This document shows, piece by piece, positions 31,205 through 62,765 of a stretch of 64,000 bases of DNA (position 1 is the first letter of the stretch; each line of letters opens with the position of its first letter). The notes beneath the pieces are model-generated. The model made no database searches. It was given only the letters and a program-made list of their open reading frames with translations, and had not been told where the DNA came from. A program made the translations under genes and the position numbers. The stretch covers positions 1-64,000 of the forward strand of contig CACVBU010001118.1 of the NCBI GenBank assembly GCA_902728285.1. Reading direction: 5' to 3'. Source of the DNA: Clytia hemisphaerica. Its lineage: Eukaryota; Cnidaria; Hydrozoa; Leptothecata; Clytiidae.

Positions 31205-33010
31205 TCCTATGTTTCGACCAATCGTCCCAAGTTAGAGCAGTTGACGGTATCTTTATATCGTAGTTTCGGTCGACCAACAGAACGAGTGGCTTTGTTAAGC
31301 TGACCATACATGAGAGCTTTAACGGGACGATTGTCGTTCATTCTTGACACATGACCAAGCCAACGTAGACGATTTGTAAGGAGTGTAATTTCTATATCGT
31401 CAACATCTGCTCTTCTTAGTACTTGCTTACAAAGTCACTCCATTTTATTCGGAGAATCTTCCTCAAATGCCGTTGTTGGACTGTACGAAGCTGATTGATG
31501 TGGTGTCGATATAGTATCCAGCTTTCAGAACCATACGTGAGAAGTGGTGTTAAACACTGAGCATACACTTTCAGTTCTGTCAATATTGTAAGGTTGAAAA
31601 CACGTTCAAAGAGCCTACCATAAGCAGAAGGCAAAGCTTGGTATATGTGTGATGAGCTCGGTGTTCATTGAGCAATCTTTGGTAACAATGTTTCCAAGGT
31701 ATTTGAAACGTTTTACACTTTTGATTTGTGTACCGTCAATGAAACACTCCTCTTCTGGACCAATGGACATTGTCTCGGTTTTCTGATATTAATCGAAAGC
31801 CCCACTCGTTTAGCCATGTTATTATAAGCGTTTAATCGAACCTGTAGTCCAAGTGCTGAGTCACTTAAGATTGCAATATCGTCAGCAAATCGTGCTTCTC
31901 TGATGAAATTGATAAAGGTTTTTGTTTTGGCTTTCAATCTACTCAAATCGAAGAGATCACCGTCAGACCGAAATCTGGTTTTTACGCTGAATTGATGACC
32001 AATAGAGAAACGAGCAAGAAAAGTACAGCAGCCTAGATGCCATACAAGGTGGGTGCTAGCTTGCACCCTTGTTTTACACCACTATTGTATTCAAACGGTT
32101 CGGTTAGGACACCATCTACAATAGACGAGCATTACCTTCGGAATAGAGGCTTTGAATAAGTCTGATGAATTTTGGAGGACAGCCGAGTTTTATTGAATAT
32201 TGAACATATTTTGTCGTTGCTCTCTGTTTTTTTTTCAGTTGTTTCAGAGTAAAGATTCCGTCGATGGTACTTCTGTTCTCACGGTAGCCGGATTGGGACA
32301 GGGGATACACTTTGTCAGCTATACATTTAAGCCTTTGCGGGAGAATGTCAGCAAACAAAACCTTCCTACAACACTTAGGAGGGAAATGCCACGGTAGTTT
32401 CCGCATTGATATCGATCCCCTTTTTAAAGAGAATAGTGATGTTTGGGTCAGTTACTTCGGATGGCATGTTCTCAGTAATCCAAAATGTTGAGATTATGGC
32501 AAAGAGGAAAGCTTTCAGTGTATTTCCTCCGTGTACGAGAACTTCGGGAAGAACGCCGTCGTGACCATTGCATTTACCAAGCTTTGTGTTTTTTAGTGCG
32601 GTGTCAAGTTCCTCTTCTGTTAATGGGAGGTCGAGGGAGTTATCAATGGGAAGCTGCTCAATTTTGTCAATGAGGCTATTGCCAACGTCGGTAGGTTGAT
32701 TGAGGAGTTCGTCAAAGTGTTCCACCCATCTCTTTTTTATATCGGTGGATGACGTGAGAAAGTCGCCGTCTTTGAAACGGATAGAGTGAGTCGAATTGCT
32801 CCTAGGACCATATACTTTGTTGACAGTTGCATAAAGCTCTCGATGATTCTTGGACTGGGCATATCGTTCAGCTTCTACAGCTCTTTTATAGAACCATCTC
32901 AGTTGTCTTATACATTTACGCAATTCGTTCCGATCCAAGCGTTTATCTTTCAGGAGTCGTTGTATCTATTCGTTGTGATCGCCAAACCAATCATTTGATA
33001 CCTTTTTCTT
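31205..33010 (-). pseudogene. Dead non-LTR retrotransposon, RTE/BovB-like reverse transcriptase
   Basis: Minus-strand fragments occur in LINE order from right to left. 32938-32375 has KRWVEHFDELLNQPT, LPLTEEELDTALKNTKLGKC and NITILFKKG. Next, near 32,400-32,116, are KVYPLSQSGYRENRSTIDGI and FTLKQL. Then near 31,889-31,878 is FADD, the catalytic reverse-transcriptase motif, within REARFADDIAILSDSALGLQ. Finally 31634-31416 has LLTYGSESWILYRHHINQLR and the RHLRKILRIKW tail. The order and motifs match the reverse-transcriptase and C-terminal part of RTE-type LINEs often annotated as craniofacial-development-protein-2-like. The segments are in different frames and parts of the fingers/palm are missing, so it cannot be active. 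The 5' endonuclease part is absent. It lies inside the 30,405-35,556 repeat pair. The clade name is inference. Confidence 0.82.
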
Positions 33011-33618: not shown

Positions 33619-34799
33619 TTTACAACAATAAGAAATAATTCATAATATTTAAATCTTAATAGAGAAATGTAAAACAACTTTTTTTTAAAAGAACATCTTC
33701 CTAAAGAGAAGAAGGTTTTTTACGGTTTGTTACATTGTTTTTCTTAAAACACACTACATCTGTTATGTTCTTATAGTTTTAATATTTAATTGTATTTTCT
33801 CCTTTTATGTTTTTAACCAATAAAGACGATTTCAATTGTTTTTTATTCATTCTGTCAATCATGTTCTAACAGCCAATCAAATCCTTCACAATCTGAATTA
33901 GCCTGTGCTTGAAAACGCCATATATGAAAACGCGTATCGCCTAGTAAATTGTTACACACTGACACCGGGCAGAATGCTAATGAAAGGCCCAGTACGCTAA
34001 AGCTAGCTGGGCCAAAAACTTAAAGGGAAAACCATCACTAAAAGGATAAACACAAATATTAAAAAATATTATAGAGCTGTGTAAGAAGCTCTTTACATAA
34101 TGTCTATCGCACGTTCGGGTCTGATCGAAGCATCGCTGTCGTTTGTCGTTCTTACATTCCATGCACCGAGCTTTAGTTAGAGTGATTTGCATGGATTTTG
34201 TTTCTTTTTCGCCACTGCCGTGACCTGAAGCACATCGGTTGCCCCGGATGCGGTAGATTGATCGGTTAAATTCAAATCTGCTTCCATCATTTCATTTGAG
34301 TAAGGCTGCACGATGACGACACTAAACGCCATGGATGTTGCCGAGTTGACAGTGCATTCATGTCGGGTGCCAGCGATGTTGCCGAGATGACGAAGACATC
34401 ACTGGTGAGTGTCGGAGCTGGTATCGAGTTAGTAGCCAGAGCCGCCATTATCGTACTCTGACACGGTGGGGGGGCTACGGGTAGGATAGCAAACGCTATC
34501 AGAGTTCACAGCCCCAACTGTGAACACCCATGATAGTGGAGGGAAGGAGTCGCCCTACTTCTCCATTTTAAAGTCGGGCCTAGGCCCGACAATAGCCACT
34601 ACCCTAGGGGCTGATTATATTTACATTGATATAGACATGTAATAGCCCTGCTTTTGTAATCTCAAAGAAAAATCTTTATTGGTTTGAAAAAATAATTTTT
34701 CAATTTTTTTAACCTATCAATTTCATAATATAGCAGTTTGTTGAAATGTTTTGATTGGTTATGGAAAAAATGAATTCGAAAGTTTTATCATTTCATTTA
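33619..34799. other. Intergenic DNA without supported genes
   Basis: Includes a GC-richer patch at 34,220-34,620 with no open frame that looks coding, and a GGCCCAG...CTGGGCC inverted pair near 33,990-34,015. Nothing can be firmly annotated. Confidence 0.45.
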
Positions 34800-53776: not shown

Positions 53777-53796
53777 CACGTTTTTTTTATAAGAAC

Positions 53797-53994
53797 GTCG
53801 AAAATTTTCGAAGTCTTCGGATGTTCTTAGTTTTTTGGATTTGAAGCCTAAAAATGTTCTTAAAATGTTCTTATTTTCAGCATTTTTTGAGCATTTTGAT
53901 GTAATTTCTTAAGAAAATGCATGTTTTTCTCCAAAGCCTTAGAATGTTCTTAGAATGTTCTTAAATTTTTGGGCCTCGAAGCCTTATGTTCTTA
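53797..53994. repeat. Left-end-only subterminal segment with GTTCTTA repeats
   Basis: These ~198 bp lie between the terminal 20-mer and the arm on the left only; on the right the terminal 20-mer joins the arm after a few bases. GTTCTTA occurs at about 53823, 53856, 53867, 53946, 53957 and 53988, and the segment is bordered by ATAAGAAC and GTTCTTAT. Either the right end lost this part by recombination between GTTCTTA copies, or the left end gained it. GTCGAAAATTTTCGAAG near its start is a short palindrome. The repeats could be binding sites for the mobilising enzyme. Confidence 0.65.
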
Positions 53995-54039
53995 TATAGT
54001 AGTAGATAGAATATGATAGTTCTGGCACAGCATGCTCAA

Positions 54040-54175
54040 AGTGAGTGACTCAAGGTGTGAAAAACAACTCATGGTGTGAAAAACGACTCAATGTGTGAAA
54101 AACGACTCAATGTGTGAAAACGACTCAATGTGTGAAAAATGACTCAATGCGTGAAAAACGACTCAATGTGTGAGA
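54040..54175. repeat. 19-bp TGACTCA minisatellite, left arm
   Basis: About seven units of GACTCAATGTGTGAAAAAC with small variants (GACTCAAGGTG, AACTCATGGTG, TGACTCAATGCG). It lies outside the first gene, near the element end, and is mirrored at about 59,730-59,865. Some units contain TGACTCA, the AP-1/bZIP consensus. Its position suggests a subterminal regulatory or recombinase-binding array. Confidence 0.8.
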
Positions 54176-54362
54176 AAATAATGCTGAAAATGTGCTCCCA
54201 CAAACCTAACTTAAGCTATGGGTAAATATTCTGTCTTTTTCATTAACGAGAAAAATGAGCTTCGTTCGAGTTTGCTCTAAGATCTGGAATACTTGGTTCA
54301 CTACTAGAGGATTTCTTTACTCCCTTGGATTTATATTTTTTACGCTATCTCTCTGTTAAACA

Positions 54363-54950
54363 ATGGCAACACCAAATCAAAAAAGAAGTTTATCCTGTTC
54401 AGATGCTCCAAAGAAGAAACGGTGTTTCAAGAGCAGAATTTCAAGGTGGAAGAATGACCGAACCATAAATTTCAATGTCGAAAACTACTTTGATCAAGAA
54501 GAGGAATTCTTTATCATAACTCAAAAACTTAGTGGGCAACATACCAACTCGATCATTTTCTCTCCTGACAAAGCTAATCTTCTCATCGCTAATGTCACTG
54601 GTTATCTTTTGGAATGGAAACGAAAGAAGTTCAAAAATGAAATGCAAAACGTGTTTTTTAAGATCATGCGAGAAAAAGTCTTGCAAGTGCGGCGAGAAAT
54701 GTGCGAAGGATGTTTGGAGGACTACCCAAGTCAACTTCATCACTACTGTCTCACAACGGAGACTAAGCAATTTGTAGAAGATGCATTTTCGAATCTCCTT
54801 AAAGTGGTCGATGAAGAGGAAGCCAACGAAATTTGCAACAAGACGCTACAGATGAATGGTGAAATCAAATATTCCAAACAAGAACTCTTAGTTGATGAAC
54901 AATGGGTCAGAAATTTGAAACAATTAATTTTAAAATATTTAAATTGTTAA
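54363..54950 (+). CDS. Unknown 195-aa protein with PKKKR and CxxC/HxxC motifs, left-arm copy
   Basis: I do not recognise the family. The protein has a basic N-terminus with PKKKR at residues 16-20 (a classical nuclear-localisation pattern), a second basic block KSRISRWKN (23-31), and a mixed helical region with EWKRKKFKNEM (84-94). Then C114-E-G-C117 with H126, H127 and C129 form a likely metal-binding site, followed by an acidic helical C-terminus. The start ATG is in an AACAATGG context, about 25 bases after a TATATTTTT stretch. Stop is at 54948-54950, with AATAAA at 54985-54990. It points toward the centre of the palindrome and converges with the next gene across only 26 bases. An identical-length copy lies at 58955-59542. 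Nuclear, nucleic-acid-related function is inference. Confidence 0.72.
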   Translation: MATPNQKRSLSCSDAPKKKRCFKSRISRWKNDRTINFNVENYFDQEEEFFIITQKLSGQHTNSIIFSPDKANLLIANVTGYLLEWKRKKFKNEMQNVFFKIMREKVLQVRREMCEGCLEDYPSQLHHYCLTTETKQFVEDAFSNLLKVVDEEEANEICNKTLQMNGEIKYSKQELLVDEQWVRNLKQLILKYLNC

Positions 54951-54976
54951 ATTATTTTATTACTCATAATATACCG

Positions 54977-55374
54977 TTACATAAAATAAATAAATAAAGC
55001 TAATGAAATAATCAAATTGTTGTCTTTACATATGTATTGATCTCTTATAGAAAAATGAATGCCATCAATATAATAAATCAGCGTGTTAAGATAATCCACC
55101 TGTTCGATTTTCTTTTGTTGGGTACATTTCTTCACAACTTTTGCTTTCTTTGATTGAATTGGGACCAGTCTCTTTTTATCTTTGTAGTGAGCGTGATGGT
55201 ACATTGAGTACATCTTCGCTTTTAACTTGATAATACTCTCATTCAGCAAAGCCTTAAAAGTAACTCACTTTTTTTAGTCTTACTTACATTAAGGCAGTTG
55301 AGCTTGACGAAAGCCTCAAATAACTTCAATAAAATACCTTGAAGACTTTCAAAAAGCGGACTTCCCAAATTCAT
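54977..55374 (-). CDS. Unknown 120-aa basic protein with an apparent 35-nt intron, left-arm copy
   Basis: Exon 1 is 55374-55288 (29 codons, starting MNLGSPLFESLQG). A GTAAGT donor follows at 55287, and a TTTTAAG acceptor ends at 55253. Exon 2 is 55252-54977 (91 codons plus stop), with ALLNESIIKLKAKMYSMYHH, lysine-rich KRLVPIQSKKAKVVKKC and a hydrophobic end LIISLALFIYF. Without splicing, exon 1 meets a stop after the junction, so splicing or a frameshift is needed; 35 nt would be extremely short for an intron. A TATAAATA box lies 90 bases upstream (55465-55472). The family is unknown. If the gene starts instead at the internal Met, it is a 90-aa protein at 54977-55249. The right-arm copy is frameshifted. 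Confidence 0.5.
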
Positions 55375-55464
55375 TCTTTATAATTAAAAATAAGACATCA
55401 TTGTTTTCTTTAATCACGATTACTGATGAGGTCATTTTGTTATTACAATACTCCATTTCATTTA

Positions 55465-55472
55465 TATTTATA
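55465..55472 (-). promoter_or_regulatory. TATA box of the 120-aa gene, left arm
   Basis: TATAAATA on the minus strand, 90 bases before the proposed start codon. The mirror copy is at 58433-58440. Confidence 0.5.
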
Positions 55473-55730
55473 CATTTCTTCTAGCTTTTTGTTAGTGCTA
55501 ACATCCTTATCCTGTTACTTTTATTCTTAAACAACGTATCTGAAACTTAAAGCATCATATATATTATCATGATGTTTCAGTAACCCTACCTTACGCTAAA
55601 TACTTGACCTCGGGTAAAATGATTGACCCAAAGAATAAAAGAAATAAAATACAAGTATTATCTAATCAGAGAGCAATATATTCAGAGCTTTAATGAAAAT
55701 ACAAGTGTCCATTACAGAGATCGTTTCGTT

Positions 55731-56171
55731 TCATTCTTTCATTTCATCATTTGAAAATTGAATTATTTGTCGATGAATCAAAAACCGACGTTTTTCAATA
55801 GCAAAATCCAATGCTTCCTCAAAGTCCATATCTTCTTCGTCTCTAACTCTTTGCAAAGTTTGCATGATGGCTTTATGAGTCATATTCTTTTTCATTGCCC
55901 GGAGAAAAAGGATCTTGTATTTATAAATTTCATTAATTGATAAACCAGTCTCTTCGCATTCGTTGAACATGGTCTCCCAGATATTTATTGTTTCTTCATC
56001 ACCTTGAGATTGTTCACTGTCATCAGAATCTTCATCATTGGACATCGACTCACTGTCTGGATGATCCTCATCTTCTTCATCTTCAGATTCTTCAGGGTGG
56101 GCTTTTGCAACATGGCGATTGTAGTTGCTTTTTGTGGAAAAGGTCTTTTCGCAATCGTCACATTCATACAT
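55731..56171 (-). CDS. Acidic C2H2 zinc-finger protein, 146 aa, left-arm copy
   Basis: The N-terminus holds one classical C2H2 finger, C4-x2-C7-x12-H20-x4-H25 (YECDDCEKTFSTKSNYNRH). A long acidic, serine-rich linker follows (residues 28-62, with EESEDEEDEDHPDSESMS). A helical C-terminal part has NIWETMFNECEETGLSINEI, YKYKILFLRAMKKN and EEALDFAIEKRRFLIHR. One finger plus an acidic tract suggests a DNA-binding regulator; the C-terminal part may be a protein-interaction domain. I do not recognise the family. A TATAAA lies 51 bases upstream (56223-56228), and ATTAAA follows the stop (55689-55694). A short upstream ATG opens a 9-codon frame ending in a TGA that overlaps the main start. It is transcribed away from the centre. 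The right-arm copy is identical in length. Confidence 0.8.
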   Translation of the reverse strand: MYECDDCEKTFSTKSNYNRHVAKAHPEESEDEEDEDHPDSESMSNDEDSDDSEQSQGDEETINIWETMFNECEETGLSINEIYKYKILFLRAMKKNMTHKAIMQTLQRVRDEEDMDFEEALDFAIEKRRFLIHRQIIQFSNDEMKE

Positions 56172-56222
56172 CGTCGCCCTTGGTTTTAAACATTATGAAG
56201 AAATGGAATCTTTTCTTGCCAA

Positions 56223-56228
56223 TTTATA
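56223..56228 (-). promoter_or_regulatory. TATA box of the zinc-finger gene, left arm
   Basis: GGCCTATAAATTGG on the minus strand, 51 bases before the ATG. The mirror copy is at 57677-57682. Confidence 0.6.
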
Positions 56229-56399
56229 GGCCAAATGCAAGAGGAATCCGATATAGGGTTTCTCTTTAGGATCTTGGATTCTTGCTCTTCAATTGAATAC
56301 GCTCGTGTCTTTTTTTTTCTTTTCTTTACAATCGATTTTTGACTAAGCTAGCTTGATCTTATTCTACATTTCCTAATCTATTTTATTAATCATTTTGGG

Positions 56400-56872
56400 A
56401 CTATCACCTAATCTTTGTTTGGGATTACCTAATCCCTATTAAAGATTACCTAATCCCTCTTTGGGATTACCTAGTCTAAGGGAATCCTTTTTGAGATCAC
56501 CTAATCCATGTTTAAGATTACCTAATCTTTAATTGGGATTATACTGAATCCATGATAATATGTTTTGGAGATCACCTAATCCCTGTTTAAGATTACCTAA
56601 TCCTTCACTTAATCTCTCTTTGGGATTACCTAATCTCTCTTTGGGATTACCTAATCTCTGTTTGGGATTACCTAATCTCTGTTTGGGTTTACCTAATTCA
56701 AGCTAATCCTTATCTCAGATCACCTAACCCTATTATAAGATCACCTAATCCCTCTTTGTAATTACCGGATTCAAGTAAATCTTTTAGAGATTAGCGAATC
56801 TCTTTATTACATTACCTAATCCCTCTTTGGGACCAACTAATCCTCATTTGAGATTATATAATCCCTAAGTTT
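56400..56872. repeat. GATTACCTAATC motif array, left of centre
   Basis: About 18 copies of GATTACCTAATC or close variants (GATCACCTAATC, GATTACCTAGTC), many spaced ~20 bp apart with CCCTCTTTGG or CTCTGTTTGG between. The 12-mer is itself palindromic except for its central CC. GGATTA/TAATCC is the core recognised by K50 homeodomain proteins, and ~20-bp spacing places copies on one face of DNA, as in iterons. It lies in the shared upstream region of the two divergent zinc-finger genes. Confidence 0.85.
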
Positions 56873-56901
56873 TTTTCTTCCAATTCACATCATTAACTGA
56901 A

Positions 56902-57004
56902 ATCGCTGGGCGGGGAACGCCTTCGGCGTTCCTTTTTAACAAAAAGGAAAACCTCTGGTAAGTGGAAGTACAGGGAACGCCGGAGGCGTTCCCCGCCCAG
57001 CGAT
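56902..57004. other. GC-rich multi-hairpin centre of the palindrome
   Basis: Left arm CGCTGGGCGGGGAACGCC and right arm GGCGTTCCCCGCCCAGCG face each other. Each side also folds on itself: GAACGCC-TTC-GGCGTTC at 56915-56931, and GAACGCC-GGA-GGCGTTC at 56975-56991. A third small hairpin, CCTTTTT-AAC-AAAAAGG, sits at 56931-56947. The unpaired spacer between arms is about 41 bp (56933-56973). The local GC content contrasts with the AT-rich arms. It could form a cruciform; a replication-origin or resolution-site role is speculative. Confidence 0.8.
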
Positions 57005-57029
57005 TTCAGTTAATGATGTGAATTGGAAG

Positions 57030-57510
57030 AAAAAAACTTAGGGATTATATAATCTCAAATGAGGATTAGTTGGTCCCAAAGAGGGATTAGGTAATGTAAT
57101 AAAGAGATTCGCTAATCTCTAAAAGATTTACTTGAATCCGGTAATTACAAAGAGGGATTAGGTGATCTTATAATAGGGTTAGGTGATCTGAGATAAGGAT
57201 TAGCTTGAATTAGGTAAACCCAAACAGAGATTAGGTAATCCCAAACAGAGATTAGGTAATCCCAAAGAGAGATTAGGTAATCCCAAAGAGAGATTAAGTG
57301 AAGGATTAGGTAATCTTAAACAGGGATTAGGTGATCTCCAAAACATATTATCATGGATTCAATATAATCCCAATTAAAGATTAGGTAATCTTAAACATGG
57401 ATTAGGTGATCTCAAAAAGGATTCCCTTAGACTAGGTAATCCCAAAGAGGGATTAGGTAATCTTTAATAGGGATTAGGTAATCCCAAACAAAGATTAGGT
57501 GATAGTCCCA
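57030..57510. repeat. GATTAGGTAATC motif array, right of centre
   Basis: Inverted copy of the array at 56,400-56,872, with the same unit order and spacing. A substitution near 57,360 and a one-base deletion near 57,529 are among the few differences between arms here. Confidence 0.85.
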
Positions 57511-57676
57511 AAATGATTAATAAAATAGATAGGAAATGTAGAATAAGATCAAGCTAGCTTAGTCAAAAATCGATTGTAAAGAAAAGAAAAAAAAAGACAC
57601 GAGCGTATTCAATTGAAGAGCAAGAATCCAAGATCCTAAAGAGAAACCCTATATCGGATTCCTCTTGCATTTGGCC

Positions 57677-57682
57677 TATAAA
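57677..57682 (+). promoter_or_regulatory. TATA box of the zinc-finger gene, right arm
   Basis: GGCCTATAAATTGG, 51 bases before the ATG at 57734; identical to the left-arm copy. Confidence 0.6.
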
Positions 57683-57733
57683 TTGGCAAGAAAAGATTCC
57701 ATTTCTTCATAATGTTTAAAACCAAGGGCGACG

Positions 57734-58174
57734 ATGTATGAATGTGACGATTGCGAAAAGACCTTTTCCACAAAAAGCAACTACAATCGCCATGTTGCAA
57801 AAGCCCACCCTGAAGAATCTGAAGATGAAGAAGATGAGGATCATCCAGACAGTGAGTCGATGTCCAATGATGAAGATTCTGATGACAGTGAACAATCTCA
57901 AGGTGATGAAGAAACAATAAATATCTGGGAGACCATGTTCAACGAATGCGAAGAGACTGGTTTATCAATTAATGAAATTTATAAATACAAGATCCTTTTT
58001 CTCCGGGCAATGAAAAAGAATATGACTCATAAAGCCATCATGCAAACTTTGCAAAGAGTTAGAGACGAAGAAGATATGGACTTTGAGGAAGCATTGGATT
58101 TTGCTATTGAAAAACGTCGGTTTTTGATTCATCGACAAATAATTCAATTTTCAAATGATGAAATGAAAGAATGA
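57734..58174 (+). CDS. Acidic C2H2 zinc-finger protein, 146 aa, right-arm copy
   Basis: Same product as 55731-56171: one C2H2 finger at residues 4-25, an acidic serine-rich linker to about residue 62, then a helical, charged C-terminus. Both copies are full length and their translations are identical over 146 residues, so either recent duplication or gene conversion between arms keeps them the same. It is transcribed outward from the central motif array, divergent from the left copy with about 1.56 kb between start codons. ATTAAA at 58211-58216 is the likely poly(A) signal. Confidence 0.8.
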   Translation: MYECDDCEKTFSTKSNYNRHVAKAHPEESEDEEDEDHPDSESMSNDEDSDDSEQSQGDEETINIWETMFNECEETGLSINEIYKYKILFLRAMKKNMTHKAIMQTLQRVRDEEDMDFEEALDFAIEKRRFLIHRQIIQFSNDEMKE

Positions 58175-58432
58175 AACGAAACGATCTCTGTAATGGACAC
58201 TTGTATTTTCATTAAAGCTCTGAATATATTGCTCTCTGATTAGATAATACTTGTATTTTATTTCTTTTATTCTTTGGGTCAATCATTTTACCCGAGGTCA
58301 AGTATTTAGCGTAAGGTAGGGTTACTGAAACATCATGATAATATATATGATGCTTTAAGTTTCAGATACGTTGTTTAAGAATAAAAGTAACAGGATAAGG
58401 ATGTTAGCACTAACAAAAAGCTAGAAGAAATG

Positions 58433-58440
58433 TATAAATA
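58433..58440 (+). promoter_or_regulatory. TATA box of the 120-aa gene, right arm
   Basis: TATAAATA, about 90 bases before the ATG near 58531; mirror of 55465-55472. Confidence 0.45.
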
Positions 58441-58530
58441 TAAATGGAATGGAGTATTGTAATAACAAAATGACCTCATCAGTAATCGTGATTAAAGAAA
58501 ACAATGATGTCTTATTTTTAATTATAAAGA

Positions 58531-58928
58531 ATGAATTTGGGAAAGTCCGCTTTTTGAAAGTCTTCAAGGTATTTTATTGAAGTTATTTGAGGCTTTCGTC
58601 AAGCTCAACTGCCTTAATGTAAGTAAGACTAAAAAAAGTGAGTTACTTTTAAGGCTTTGCTGAATGAGAGTATTATCAAGTTAAAAGCGAAGATGTACTC
58701 AATGTACCATCACGCTCACTACAAAGATAAAAAGAGACTGGTCCCAATTCAATCAAAGAAAGCAAAAGTGTGAAGAAATGTACCCAACAAAAGAAAATCG
58801 AACAGGTGGATTATCTTAACACGCTGATTTATTATATTGATGGCATTCATTTTTCTATAAGAGATCAATACATATGTAAAGACAACAATTTGATTATTTC
58901 ATTAGCTTTATTTATTTATTTTATGTAA
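58531..58928 (+). pseudogene. Frameshifted right-arm copy of the 120-aa gene
   Basis: Inverted counterpart of 54977-55374. One extra A near 58,540 breaks exon 1 a few codons after its ATG, and one missing T near 58,771 breaks exon 2 in the lysine-rich segment. The putative GTAAGT donor and TTTTAAG acceptor are retained. Both changes are single-base indels, so assembly error must be excluded before calling the copy dead. If real, only the left copy encodes this protein, while the other two genes remain intact in both arms. Confidence 0.55.
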
Positions 58929-58954
58929 CGGTATATTATGAGTAATAAAATAAT

Positions 58955-59542
58955 TTAACAATTTAAATATTTTAAAATTAATTGTTTCAAATTTCTGACC
59001 CATTGTTCATCAACTAAGAGTTCTTGTTTGGAATATTTGATTTCACCATTCATCTGTAGCGTCTTGTTGCAAATTTCGTTGGCTTCCTCTTCATCGACCA
59101 CTTTAAGGAGATTCGAAAATGCATCTTCTACAAATTGCTTAGTCTCCGTTGTGAGACAGTAGTGATGAAGTTGACTTGGGTAGTCCTCCAAACATCCTTC
59201 GCACATTTCTCGCCGCACTTGCAAGACTTTTTCTCGCATGATCTTAAAAAACACGTTTTGCATTTCATTTTTGAACTTCTTTCGTTTCCATTCCAAAAGA
59301 TAACCAGTGACATTAGCGATGAGAAGATTAGCTTTGTCAGGAGAGAAAATGATCGAGTTGGTATGTTGCCCACTAAGTTTTTGAGTTATGATAAAGAATT
59401 CCTCTTCTTGATCAAAGTAGTTTTCGACATTGAAATTTATGGTTCGGTCATTCTTCCACCTTGAAATTCTGCTCTTGAAACACCGTTTCTTCTTTGGAGC
59501 ATCTGAACAGGATAAACTTCTTTTTTGATTTGGTGTTGCCAT
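58955..59542 (-). CDS. Unknown 195-aa protein with PKKKR and CxxC/HxxC motifs, right-arm copy
   Basis: Inverted copy of 54363-54950 with the same 195 residues: PKKKR at 16-20, C114/C117 with H126, H127 and C129, and an acidic helical end. It points toward the palindrome centre and converges with the broken copy of the 120-aa gene across 26 bases. Identity of the two translations implies recent duplication or ongoing conversion. Family and function are unknown to me. Confidence 0.72.
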   Translation of the reverse strand: MATPNQKRSLSCSDAPKKKRCFKSRISRWKNDRTINFNVENYFDQEEEFFIITQKLSGQHTNSIIFSPDKANLLIANVTGYLLEWKRKKFKNEMQNVFFKIMREKVLQVRREMCEGCLEDYPSQLHHYCLTTETKQFVEDAFSNLLKVVDEEEANEICNKTLQMNGEIKYSKQELLVDEQWVRNLKQLILKYLNC

Positions 59543-59727
59543 TGTTTAACAGAGAGATAGCGTAAAAAATATAAATCCAAGGGAGTAAAGAAATCCTCTA
59601 GTAGTGAACCAAGTATTCCAGATCTTAGAGCAAACTCGAACGAAGCTCATTTTTCTCGTTAATGAAAAAGACAGAATATTTACCCATAGCTTAAGTTAGG
59701 TTTGTGGGAGCACATTTTCAGCATTAT

Positions 59728-59866
59728 TTCTCACACATTGAGTCGTTTTTCACGCATTGAGTCATTTTTCACACATTGAGTCGTTTTCACACATTGAGTC
59801 GTTTTTCACACATTGAGTCGTTTTTCACACCATGAGTTGTTTTTCACACCTTGAGTCACTCACTTT
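59728..59866. repeat. 19-bp TGACTCA minisatellite, right arm
   Basis: Inverted copy of the minisatellite at 54,040-54,175, with the same seven-unit order, including the TGACTCAATGCG variant. A one-base difference just inside it (AAAA versus AAA near 54,178) separates the arms. Confidence 0.8.
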
Positions 59867-59931
59867 GAGCATGCTGTGCCAGAACTATCATATTCTATCT
59901 ACTTATAGTTTGTTCTTATAAAAAAAACGTG

Positions 59932-60837: not shown

Positions 60838-61512
60838 GGTTTTAGCCTCGTTTGGCGAAAAAACTCGTCCCCATGCCCCAAAAATTAAAATTTTGAAAAA
60901 ATGAAAAAAACCACCCCCAGGGATTTGCCCAAGGATCAAGTGTGAAAAATTTCAGTCCAATCGGACCATTTTTGAAGTCTCCAGCCTGCCCTAAAGTTTT
61001 AGCCTCGTTTTGGCGAAAAACCCGTCCCAGGCCCCAAAAATTAAATTTTGAAAATAATGATAAAAACATCCCCAGGGATTTGCCCAAGGATCAAGTGTGC
61101 AAAATTTCAGCCCAATCGAACCATTTTTAAAGTCTCCAGTCTGCCCCAAAGTTTTAGCCTCGTTTTGGCGAAAAACTCGTCCCAAGGCTCCAAAAATCAA
61201 AATTTTGAAAAAATGAAAAACACCCCCAGGGATTTGCAAAAGGATCAAGTGTGCAAAATTTCAGCCCAAACGGACCATTTTTGAAGTCTCCAGCCTGCCC
61301 CAAAGTTTTAGCCTCGTTTTGGCGAAAAACTCGGTCCCCAGGCCCCAAAAATCAAAATTTTGGAAAAATGAAAAAACTACCCCCAGGGATTTGCAAAGGA
61401 TCAAGTGTGCAAAAATTTCAGCCAAATCGGACCATTTTTGAAGTCTCCAGCCTGCCCCAACGTTTTAGCCTCGTTTTGGCGAAAAACTCGTCCCTAGGCC
61501 CCAAAAATTAAA
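60838..61512. repeat. ~156-bp tandem repeat, about 4.3 copies
   Basis: Units start GTTTTAGCCTCGTTTTGGCG at about 60838, 60996, 61151, 61305 and 61462 (spacing 153-158 bp). Each contains CCCCAGGGATTTGC, GGATCAAGTGTGCAAAATTT and TTTTTGAAGTCTCCAGCCTG. Open frames of 62-86 codons on both strands recur once per unit and are repeat by-products. Confidence 0.9.
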
Positions 61513-61874
61513 AGCCTGAGTACAAACGTGCGAGTGAAAAATGAGAGCGAACGAGAGCACAGTGAGAGGACCATGAAACCTGGGCAAATGCAAATGAAAA
61601 AATGAAGGCCAGAAAACTTAACTAGTGTGGCTCGAATCCTGAAATTCATATGTTAAAAAAAAATATTACCCGTTCGTTAATGTGTCTGGTTGTTAAAGAG
61701 CAAGTGGGATTTTTCTTCACACCATTGCAATTATTTGCATTTGCTGAAGTACGTTGGTTGTGTTTACTTGGGAATGACGAGTGGTAGTACAGTTTTAAGT
61801 ACTTAGTGAAGAGCTGATAGATAGAACTTTCTATAACGTACTAGATCCGGATCAGGTGCAGTTATCGGTACCCA
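61513..61874. other. Intergenic segment
   Basis: Contains GAGTGAAAAATGAGAGCGAACGAGAG-like purine-rich text at about 61,532. No gene or repeat border can be defined. Confidence 0.4.
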
Positions 61875-61920: not shown

Positions 61921-62765
61921 AAGAGTGGTTTTTTTCAATTTACTGACCAGATTTCACTAGTAAAGAATGTTACCTAAGAGTCATCTCCTTTCACTGGTAA
62001 AGAGTCTTACCTAGGCGATTCCCTGCACTGGTAAAGAATCGTACCTAAGTATTTTTATGGTCACTGGTAAAGAATGTTACCTAAGTATTTTTATGGTCAC
62101 TGGTAAAGAATCGTACCTAAGCATTTTTATGGTCACTGGTAAAGAATGTTACCTAAGTATTTTTATGGTCACTGGTAAAGAATCTTACCTAAGTATTTTG
62201 ACTGTCACTGGTAAAGAATATTACCTAAGTATTTTGACTGTCACTGGTAAAGAATCTTACCTAAGTATTTTGACGATCACTGGTAAAGAATCTTACCTAA
62301 GTATCTTGACGATCACTGGTAAAGAATCGTACCTAAGTGTCTTGACGATCACTGGTAAAGAATGTTACCTAAGTATTTTTATGGTCACTGGTAAAGAATG
62401 TTACCTAAGTATTTTTAGGATCACTTGTAAAGAATCGTACCTAAGTATTTTTATGGTCACTGGTAAAGAATGTTACCTAAGTATTTTTATGGTCACTGGT
62501 AAAGAATCGTACCTAAGTATTTTTATGGTCACTGGTAAAGAATGTTACCTAAGTATTTTTATGGTCACTGGTAAAGAATGTTACCTAAGTATTTTTATGG
62601 TCACTGGTAAAGAATCTTACCTAAGTATCTTAACGATCACTGGTAAAGAATCGTACCTAAGTGTCTTGACGATCACTGGTAAAGAATCTTACCTAAGTGT
62701 CTTGACTATCACTGGTAAAGAATGTTACCTAAGTTTTTTTTATGGTCACTGGTAAATAATATTGC
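61921..62765. repeat. 36-bp minisatellite (CACTGGTAAAGAAT...ACCTAAGT)
   Basis: After three or four loosely spaced cores at 61,945-62,050, about 19-20 units of exactly 36 bp follow: GGTCACTGGTAAAGAATGTT then ACCTAAGTATTTTTAT, with variants (TCGTACC, TTTTGACGATCAC). Because 36 is a multiple of three, an uninterrupted 232-codon frame (62057-62755) reads a 12-residue repeat, MVTGKECYLSIF. I treat it as a repeat artefact: no promoter, start context or non-repeat domain supports translation. Confidence 0.92.

Follow-up and report, generated by a model that had tools for sequence, protein, structure and literature searches.

What kind of genetic element consists almost wholly of two inverted copies of itself, and what keeps the two copies alike? 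The question is raised by a palindrome in Clytia hemisphaerica, located in the 64,000-nucleotide (nt) stretch of contig CACVBU010001118.1 (assembly GCA_902728285.1, positions 1 to 64,000) that was analysed as a whole and is called the window here. The palindrome is a real, mobile, multi-copy element with mutually matching arms. Very probably it descends from a Polinton/Maverick as a snap-back (fully palindromic), non-autonomous form, which autonomous relatives presumably replicate and integrate and whose arms would be produced by hairpin copying.

Limits, target site and copies of the palindrome

The two arms align with 99.76% identity over 2,933 columns, differing by 3 substitutions and 4 single-base indels, which confirms the near-perfect inverted repeat with ~2.9-kilobase (kb) arms and few differences described in the initial annotation, at ~2.93 kb per arm. 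The outer limits required correction. Identical 20-mers at 53777-53796 and 59912-59931 had been taken as the palindrome termini, giving a size of 6.2 kb (6,155 base pairs, bp). These 20-mers exist (two exact matches in the window and one with 3 mismatches at 33675; chance expectation 0.01) and belong to a miniature inverted-repeat transposable element (MITE) that the palindrome entered. The stretch 53797-54000 has no mirror counterpart on the right side in the window self-comparison. A related, palindrome-free MITE in region L014, from 8146, reads ...TTATGTTCTTA-TATGGT-TTGTTC..., and the window at the equivalent site reads ...TTATGTTCTTA-TATAGT-AGTAGATAG...CTATCTACT-TATAGT-TTGTTC.... Together, these observations place the palindrome at 54001-59903 (5,903 bp), flanked by a 6-bp duplication, inside a 246-bp MITE.

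The host MITE has short terminal inverted repeats (TIRs) and a TA duplication within a 181-bp satellite, the TA site having been read by eye against a neighbouring satellite unit. Its family, with CACGTTTT...TATAAGAAC ends, is represented by window 53777-54000 plus 59910-59931, L014 from 8146 and L016 from 1575. Cut-and-paste movement with TA duplication holds for this MITE, which may be Tc1/mariner-like, and is refuted for the palindrome. The other full palindromes fetched end in AGTAG, without the 20-mer; in L016 the 20-mer lies ~100 bp outside the palindrome, which has likewise inserted into a MITE, so that such MITEs may be preferred targets.

The genome of the species was searched (417 Mb, 951 contigs), scoring 40 of 2186 candidates with one arm, 150 of 209 with gene 2, 150 of 156 with gene 1, 40 of 89 with the ends of region L010 and 40 of 42 with the ends of the window palindrome, so that all copy numbers are minimum values and no absence is proven. 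One window arm has at least 144 matching stretches. Self-comparison of 20 fetched regions revealed palindromes of ~6-8 kb in L010, L011, L013, L014, L017, L018 and L019, the other regions being partial, rearranged or of a different kind. Ends were checked in 12 copies, comprising the window, eight regions from the one-arm search and three later regions. Perfect 6-bp target-site duplications (TSDs), all different, flank 9 of them: TATAGT in the window, ATGACA in L009, TGAAGG in L010, GTAGTC in L013, TCCCTC in L014, AAAATC in L017, AAGAAC in L018, CAAATA in L035 and TTTCTA in L037. A chance 6-mer match is expected at ~0.0004 per comparison at the prevailing base composition. Each of the nine carries the same AGTAG-starting 22-mer at both of its ends, with 7 types occurring overall (AGTAGT in 7 copies, AGTAGA in 2). 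The initial annotation had proposed, as a check for mobility, a search for multiple copies that share their ends but differ in their flanks; such copies were found, dispersed and with differing perfect TSDs.

Probable Polinton ancestry and gene content of the arms

According to PMC8097293, the hallmarks of vertebrate Mavericks include 6-bp TSDs and terminal motifs of the form (AGT)2 or (AG)3. The window palindrome has a 6-bp TSD, terminal AGT units and TIRs in common with 15-16-kb elements. Of the protein-primed DNA polymerase B (PolB) gene only a relic of the 3' end is present; rve integrase, packaging ATPase, protease and capsid genes were not found when the three arm proteins were compared with Pfam, and no further long frame occurs in 54001-59903. 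Lacking these core genes, the element is classed as a non-autonomous derivative and not as a full Polinton. The absence of a transposase agrees with the initial annotation, which had also offered a virus-derived origin, now borne out as a Polinton derivative. Its other suggestions, a long-TIR transposon or a head-to-head dimer of a linear replicon, came close, the element being of Polinton type with a terminal repeat that fills its whole length.

Searches with a protease-like fragment of L024, presumably adenain-like, and with PF03175 led to a Polinton of 15,028 bp at C65:226687-241714. It is flanked by the TSD ATCCAA, starts with AGTAGATAG like the window palindrome, and has inverted repeats of 248 bp that are 99.6% identical. 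A polymerase piece matches PF03175 above the curated cut-off, an rve integrase is recognised with an E-value of 4e-9, and one frame has a weak Ulp1-protease match (E-value 0.08, below cut-off). Further long frames look capsid-like and have no family match. A homologue of gene 1 of the palindrome adjoins the right end and is read inward, with 58% identity over 103 amino acids (aa).

Homologues of gene 1 at 63% occur once each at C730, C308, C792 and C248, and gene 1 is present in pieces at C856. At C730 (region L038), polymerase sequence lies in frames that run towards gene 1 from the opposite side, and the 3' portion of these frames corresponds to 'gene 3' of the palindromes, with 62% identity over 37 aa (E-value 1e-9). 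The relic is also visible in DNA, L010 matching C730 (L038) with 72% identity over 96 bp. L038 matches PF03175 weakly (E-value 0.007, below cut-off), and its DNA reaches 80% identity over 97 bp with the C65 polymerase region. The layout of gene 1 and the PolB relic indicates that the arm has retained the arrangement of a single Polinton end, with the terminus followed by gene 1 read inward and the polymerase 3' end converging on it.

The termini provide a second connection. Elements at C792:69665-85955, C248:784762-801032, C856:8639-25211 and C730:217276-233613 resemble the terminal 188 bp of L010 at each of their two ends, with 86-98% identity; they measure 16.3-16.6 kb from the match positions, and the left match at C730 is without the outer 19 nt. 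One end at C308 and single ends at a few further places match as well. The same termini bound 13 shorter elements on both sides. A divergent gene-2 pair is present in 12 of these (C460, C630, C276, C38, C717, C597, C526, C128, C618, C129, C924 and C236), and one gene-2 copy was found in the remaining element, C672. The two that were fetched, C460 (L010) and C526 (L035), are both palindromes. The L010 core is near that of the window (2.1-2.2% distance), yet both of its arms end in the terminal type of another Polinton family, indicating that termini have been exchanged. Window-type termini, at 91-92%, bound a 15.8-kb element at C285 with the TSD GTTTGC.

The features of the palindrome and its host MITE are listed in Table 1. 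Genes 1 and 2 have intact frames in both window arms, so that two genes of the three-gene cassette reported for each arm stand; the third does not, being the PolB relic, with its frame broken in the right arm. The idea that gene 3 is a separate, spliced gene had been rejected, no homologues being found, before the relic was recognised. Repeats resembling the 19-bp unit also occur near the ends of other palindrome copies.

Table 1. Positions of the palindrome, its parts and the surrounding MITE in the window
Feature	Position	Strand	Size	Remarks
Palindrome (probable non-autonomous Polinton derivative)	54001..59903		5,903 bp	ends AGTAGATAG.../...CTATCTACT; self-comparison, TSD check
Left arm	54001..56932	+	2,932 bp	
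Right arm	56974..59903	-	2,930 bp	
Centre	56933..56973		41 nt	unpaired, non-palindromic
TSD TATAGT, left copy	53995..54000		6 bp	empty-site comparison
TSD TATAGT, right copy	59904..59909		6 bp	empty-site comparison
MITE, left part	53777..54000			20-bp end CACGTTTTTTTTATAAGAAC; hosts palindrome; related palindrome-free MITE in L014
MITE, right part	59910..59931			carries inverted 20-bp end
Gene 1	54363..54950	+	195 aa	basic KKKR stretch and CEGCLEDYPSQLHHYC motif; accessory gene common to longer Polintons
Gene 1, second copy	58955..59542	-		identical
Gene 2	55731..56171	-	146 aa	one C2H2 zinc finger, acidic stretch, conserved tail; read outward from centre
Gene 2, second copy	57734..58174	+		identical
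'Gene 3', relic of PolB 3' end	54977..55264	-		clearest at 55127-55237; convergent with gene 1, like Polinton at C730
PolB relic, mirror copy	58642..58928	+		frame broken by 1-nt difference
Subterminal 19-bp repeats	54047..54177	+		GACTCAATGTGTGAAAAAC; ~7 copies
19-bp repeats, mirror copy	59727..59857	-		
Array of ~21-bp repeats	56397..56877	+		TTTGGGATTACCTAATCCCTC; between gene 2 and centre
21-bp repeat array, mirror copy	57029..57509	-		limits by mirroring

Sequence searches with gene 1 in Pfam, PHROGs and PDB returned no informative match, and scans of IMG/VR, GTDB and Rfam were equally uninformative, no relative being found in IMG/VR. Public assemblies yielded 10 relatives of gene 1 (46-99% identity, one covering 24% of the query) and 10 of gene 2 (47-91%). 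One protein from the gene-1 search, P0010 (192 aa), has its first 47 residues in common with gene 1 and an unrelated remainder, perhaps through fusion or insertion. The ratio of non-synonymous to synonymous change (pN/pS) was calculated from intact frames only, with one arm per locus and pooled, non-independent pairs, as 0.19 for gene 1 (9 of 16 loci examined) and 0.17 for gene 2 (10 of 16). The values point to protein constraint on both genes, at least in the lineage feeding the copies. Gene 2 may bind the repeats of the element or regulate it.

Gene 2 also marks the wider family. Its 130 genomic matches correspond to 105 copies once fragments are merged, with 72 copies in 36 divergent pairs and 1 convergent pair. 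Palindromes of other families, L035, L036 and L037, carry gene 2 at 68-83% identity; the identity between their arms is 99.5, 98.7 and 96.7%, and their centres are 236, 446 and 583 nt long, respectively. A P-loop-like stretch encoded in the L035 centre, for which Pfam gave no significant match, is reminiscent of a packaging ATPase. L024-L027 represent a second defective Polinton kind, with gene 2 and several 21-bp repeat arrays; a gene-1-like frame (CKGCQEEG..HH) and protease fragments are seen in L024-L026, and L025 has long terminal repeats.

The remainder of the window contains long arrays of a 171-178-bp satellite at 446-20934, with higher-order units of 347 and 387 bp, and tandem arrays of 155-bp and 36-bp units at 60839-61513 and 61991-62760, respectively. 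A frame at 32375-32965 resembles a fragment of a non-LTR (long terminal repeat) reverse transcriptase.

Kinship of the arms and rival explanations

The tree of arms was built from 12 entered loci, of which L009, L012, L015 and L016 offered one usable arm only; L020-L023 were not entered. In all 8 two-armed copies tested, the two arms are sisters, with supports of 0.92-1.00, and arm distances are 0.00-0.67% within copies and 0.24-3.69% between copies. The centre, 39-41 nt long and present in either orientation, differs by only a few substitutions among 9 copies of the window family (the window and eight others), which makes it most likely that this palindrome formed once and was inherited as a palindrome. 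A single origin without re-copying would separate left and right arms into two groups; the tree shows otherwise, so the arms have been re-copied. Arm distances are 0.00-0.16% in copies that retain an intact gene 1 on one or both arms (window, L010, L011 and L013) and 0.28-0.67% in copies without it (L014, L017, L018 and L019), a weak fit, across 8 copies, to equality at insertion followed by drift.

Hairpin replication would be the simplest cause of this re-copying. In the proposed mechanism, the interior of an autonomous Polinton would have been lost and one end copied back on itself, giving a molecule with the same replication origin and integrase end at both extremities, and with gene 1 inherited from the parent. 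PolB and integrase of autonomous Polintons would act on the palindrome in trans. Protein-primed strand displacement would free a single strand, which could fold back on itself as a hairpin of 2.9 kb, closed by a loop of 41 nt, its duplex end forming a normal terminus again. Priming at this terminus and copying round the loop would then restore a full palindrome with both arms from one arm, keeping the arms alike in every round. The single-strand fold of 56895-57013, covering the centre and its neighbours, has z = -12.9 against shuffles, and the central hairpin contains small internal palindromes.

The same Polinton-palindrome origin could be combined with a different cause of arm identity, namely chromosomal gene conversion after insertion instead of replication. 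Palindromes of sex chromosomes undergo gene conversion between their inverted arms, and such conversion also predicts sister arms, as seen in 8 of 8 copies. Continuous conversion, however, predicts near-zero arm distance in decayed copies as well, against the higher distances seen there, a contrast weakened by the number of copies and by sequencing errors, which could raise both measures. The identical 22-mers at both ends of the TSD-bearing copies, in 7 types, fit replicative copying and conversion too. Overall, gene conversion is regarded as possible, though rather doubtful, as the source of arm equality.

Several observations weigh against a hairpin-copied Polinton derivative. C65 has only the outer 9-mer in common with the termini of the window palindrome, integrase was seen in C65 only, and the first 4.5 kb of the C285 element yielded only a gene-1 remnant; the genome searches turned up no autonomous Polinton that combines all its genes in intact form with exactly the palindrome's ends. 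Neither gene 2 nor the 21-bp repeats were seen in the autonomous Polintons identified here, none of the gene-2 matches lying on C792, C248, C730, C856, C308 or C65, which leaves part of the arm without a demonstrated parent. Outside divergent pairs lie 33 of the 105 gene-2 copies, including those of L024-L027 and mostly uninspected. No perfect TSD pair was found for 3 of the 12 copies (L011, L016 and L036). Gene 1 of the window and L010 differ by 4 synonymous and 4 non-synonymous changes, window-only comparisons being less clear than the pooled pN/pS. The ranges of distances within and between copies overlap because some copies are very close. The hairpin step itself would leave the same tree as post-insertion gene conversion, and replication intermediates, virions and transposition events were not among the observations.

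The central hairpin with its internal palindromes and the flanking repeat arrays would also suit a separate virus or replicon of linear DNA that resembles parvoviruses or bidnaviruses, ends in hairpin telomeres and was caught as a dimer. Neither an NS1/Rep-like frame or corresponding Pfam match nor a bidnavirus gene set was seen in the window element, its ends, gene 1 and relic are of Polinton type, and no relative was found in IMG/VR, making this origin very unlikely. It is hardly credible that the palindrome is a DNA transposon of the cut-and-paste kind, foldback-like or Tc1/mariner-like with a TA duplication, whose very long TIRs end at the 20-mers and which a transposase moves in trans: the perfect 20-mers at both ends and the TA duplication in the satellite suit it, but other full palindromes are without a terminal 20-mer, the ends are AGTAG with 6-bp TSDs, and the palindrome-free MITE relative shows an empty site. 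An assembly or library inversion artefact, suggested by single-base indels making up 4 of the 7 arm differences, is extremely unlikely given 9 loci with different flanks and perfect TSDs, arms that have diverged slightly by substitutions, and a nearly identical centre in 9 copies.

Relation to known systems and biological meaning

The palindrome, very probably a hairpin-copied Polinton derivative, resembles Polintons/Mavericks in its AGT-type ends, 6-bp TSD and terminal sequence, and in the succession of gene 1 and the PolB 3' end. It differs in lacking polymerase, integrase, ATPase, protease and capsid genes, in carrying gene 2, and in measuring 5.9 kb instead of 15-16 kb, with a terminal repeat that is the entire element. 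Foldback (FB) and long-TIR MITE-like elements also have long inverted arms and subterminal tandem repeats, but their ends and TSD are different, and Polinton sequence is present in the window palindrome. Symmetric recombinants and incomplete genomes of adenovirus, derived from a protein-primed parent, carry the same viral end twice in a palindrome and are known as products of virus stocks, whereas the window palindromes form a transposing family. In PMC8235507, snapback genomes of adeno-associated virus (AAV) are described as defective and self-complementary, with one parental end in inverted duplication and duplicated promoters and genes. The window palindrome is likewise self-complementary with one parental end inverted and duplicated; unlike these parvovirus genomes, which were found in virus particles, it belongs to a dispersed, inherited, Polinton-derived family. 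A palindromic Polinton family was not described in the literature searched, which comprised titles and abstract openings and few subscription journals.

Tentatively, palindromic Polintons might constitute a long-lived satellite lineage, with the self-complementary genome as its replicating form, gene 2 as its own gene, and termini swapped for different helpers, as in L010. Such elements might even be packaged in helper capsids as hairpin or duplex DNA, acting as hyperparasites of an endogenous virus. Short-read assemblies may collapse palindromes of this kind to one arm. The kinship of arms by copy offers a record of the copying mode that can be read from sequence alone. If a Polinton-type element can live as a complete palindrome, the TIR of such replicons can grow until it makes up the entire genome without loss of replication or integration. 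If the satellite proposal is true, the family, with its own conserved gene, would represent a satellite that depends on a virus-like element and is endogenous to the host genome, in which it is inherited; defective and satellite genomes are known in a comparable way from animal DNA viruses.

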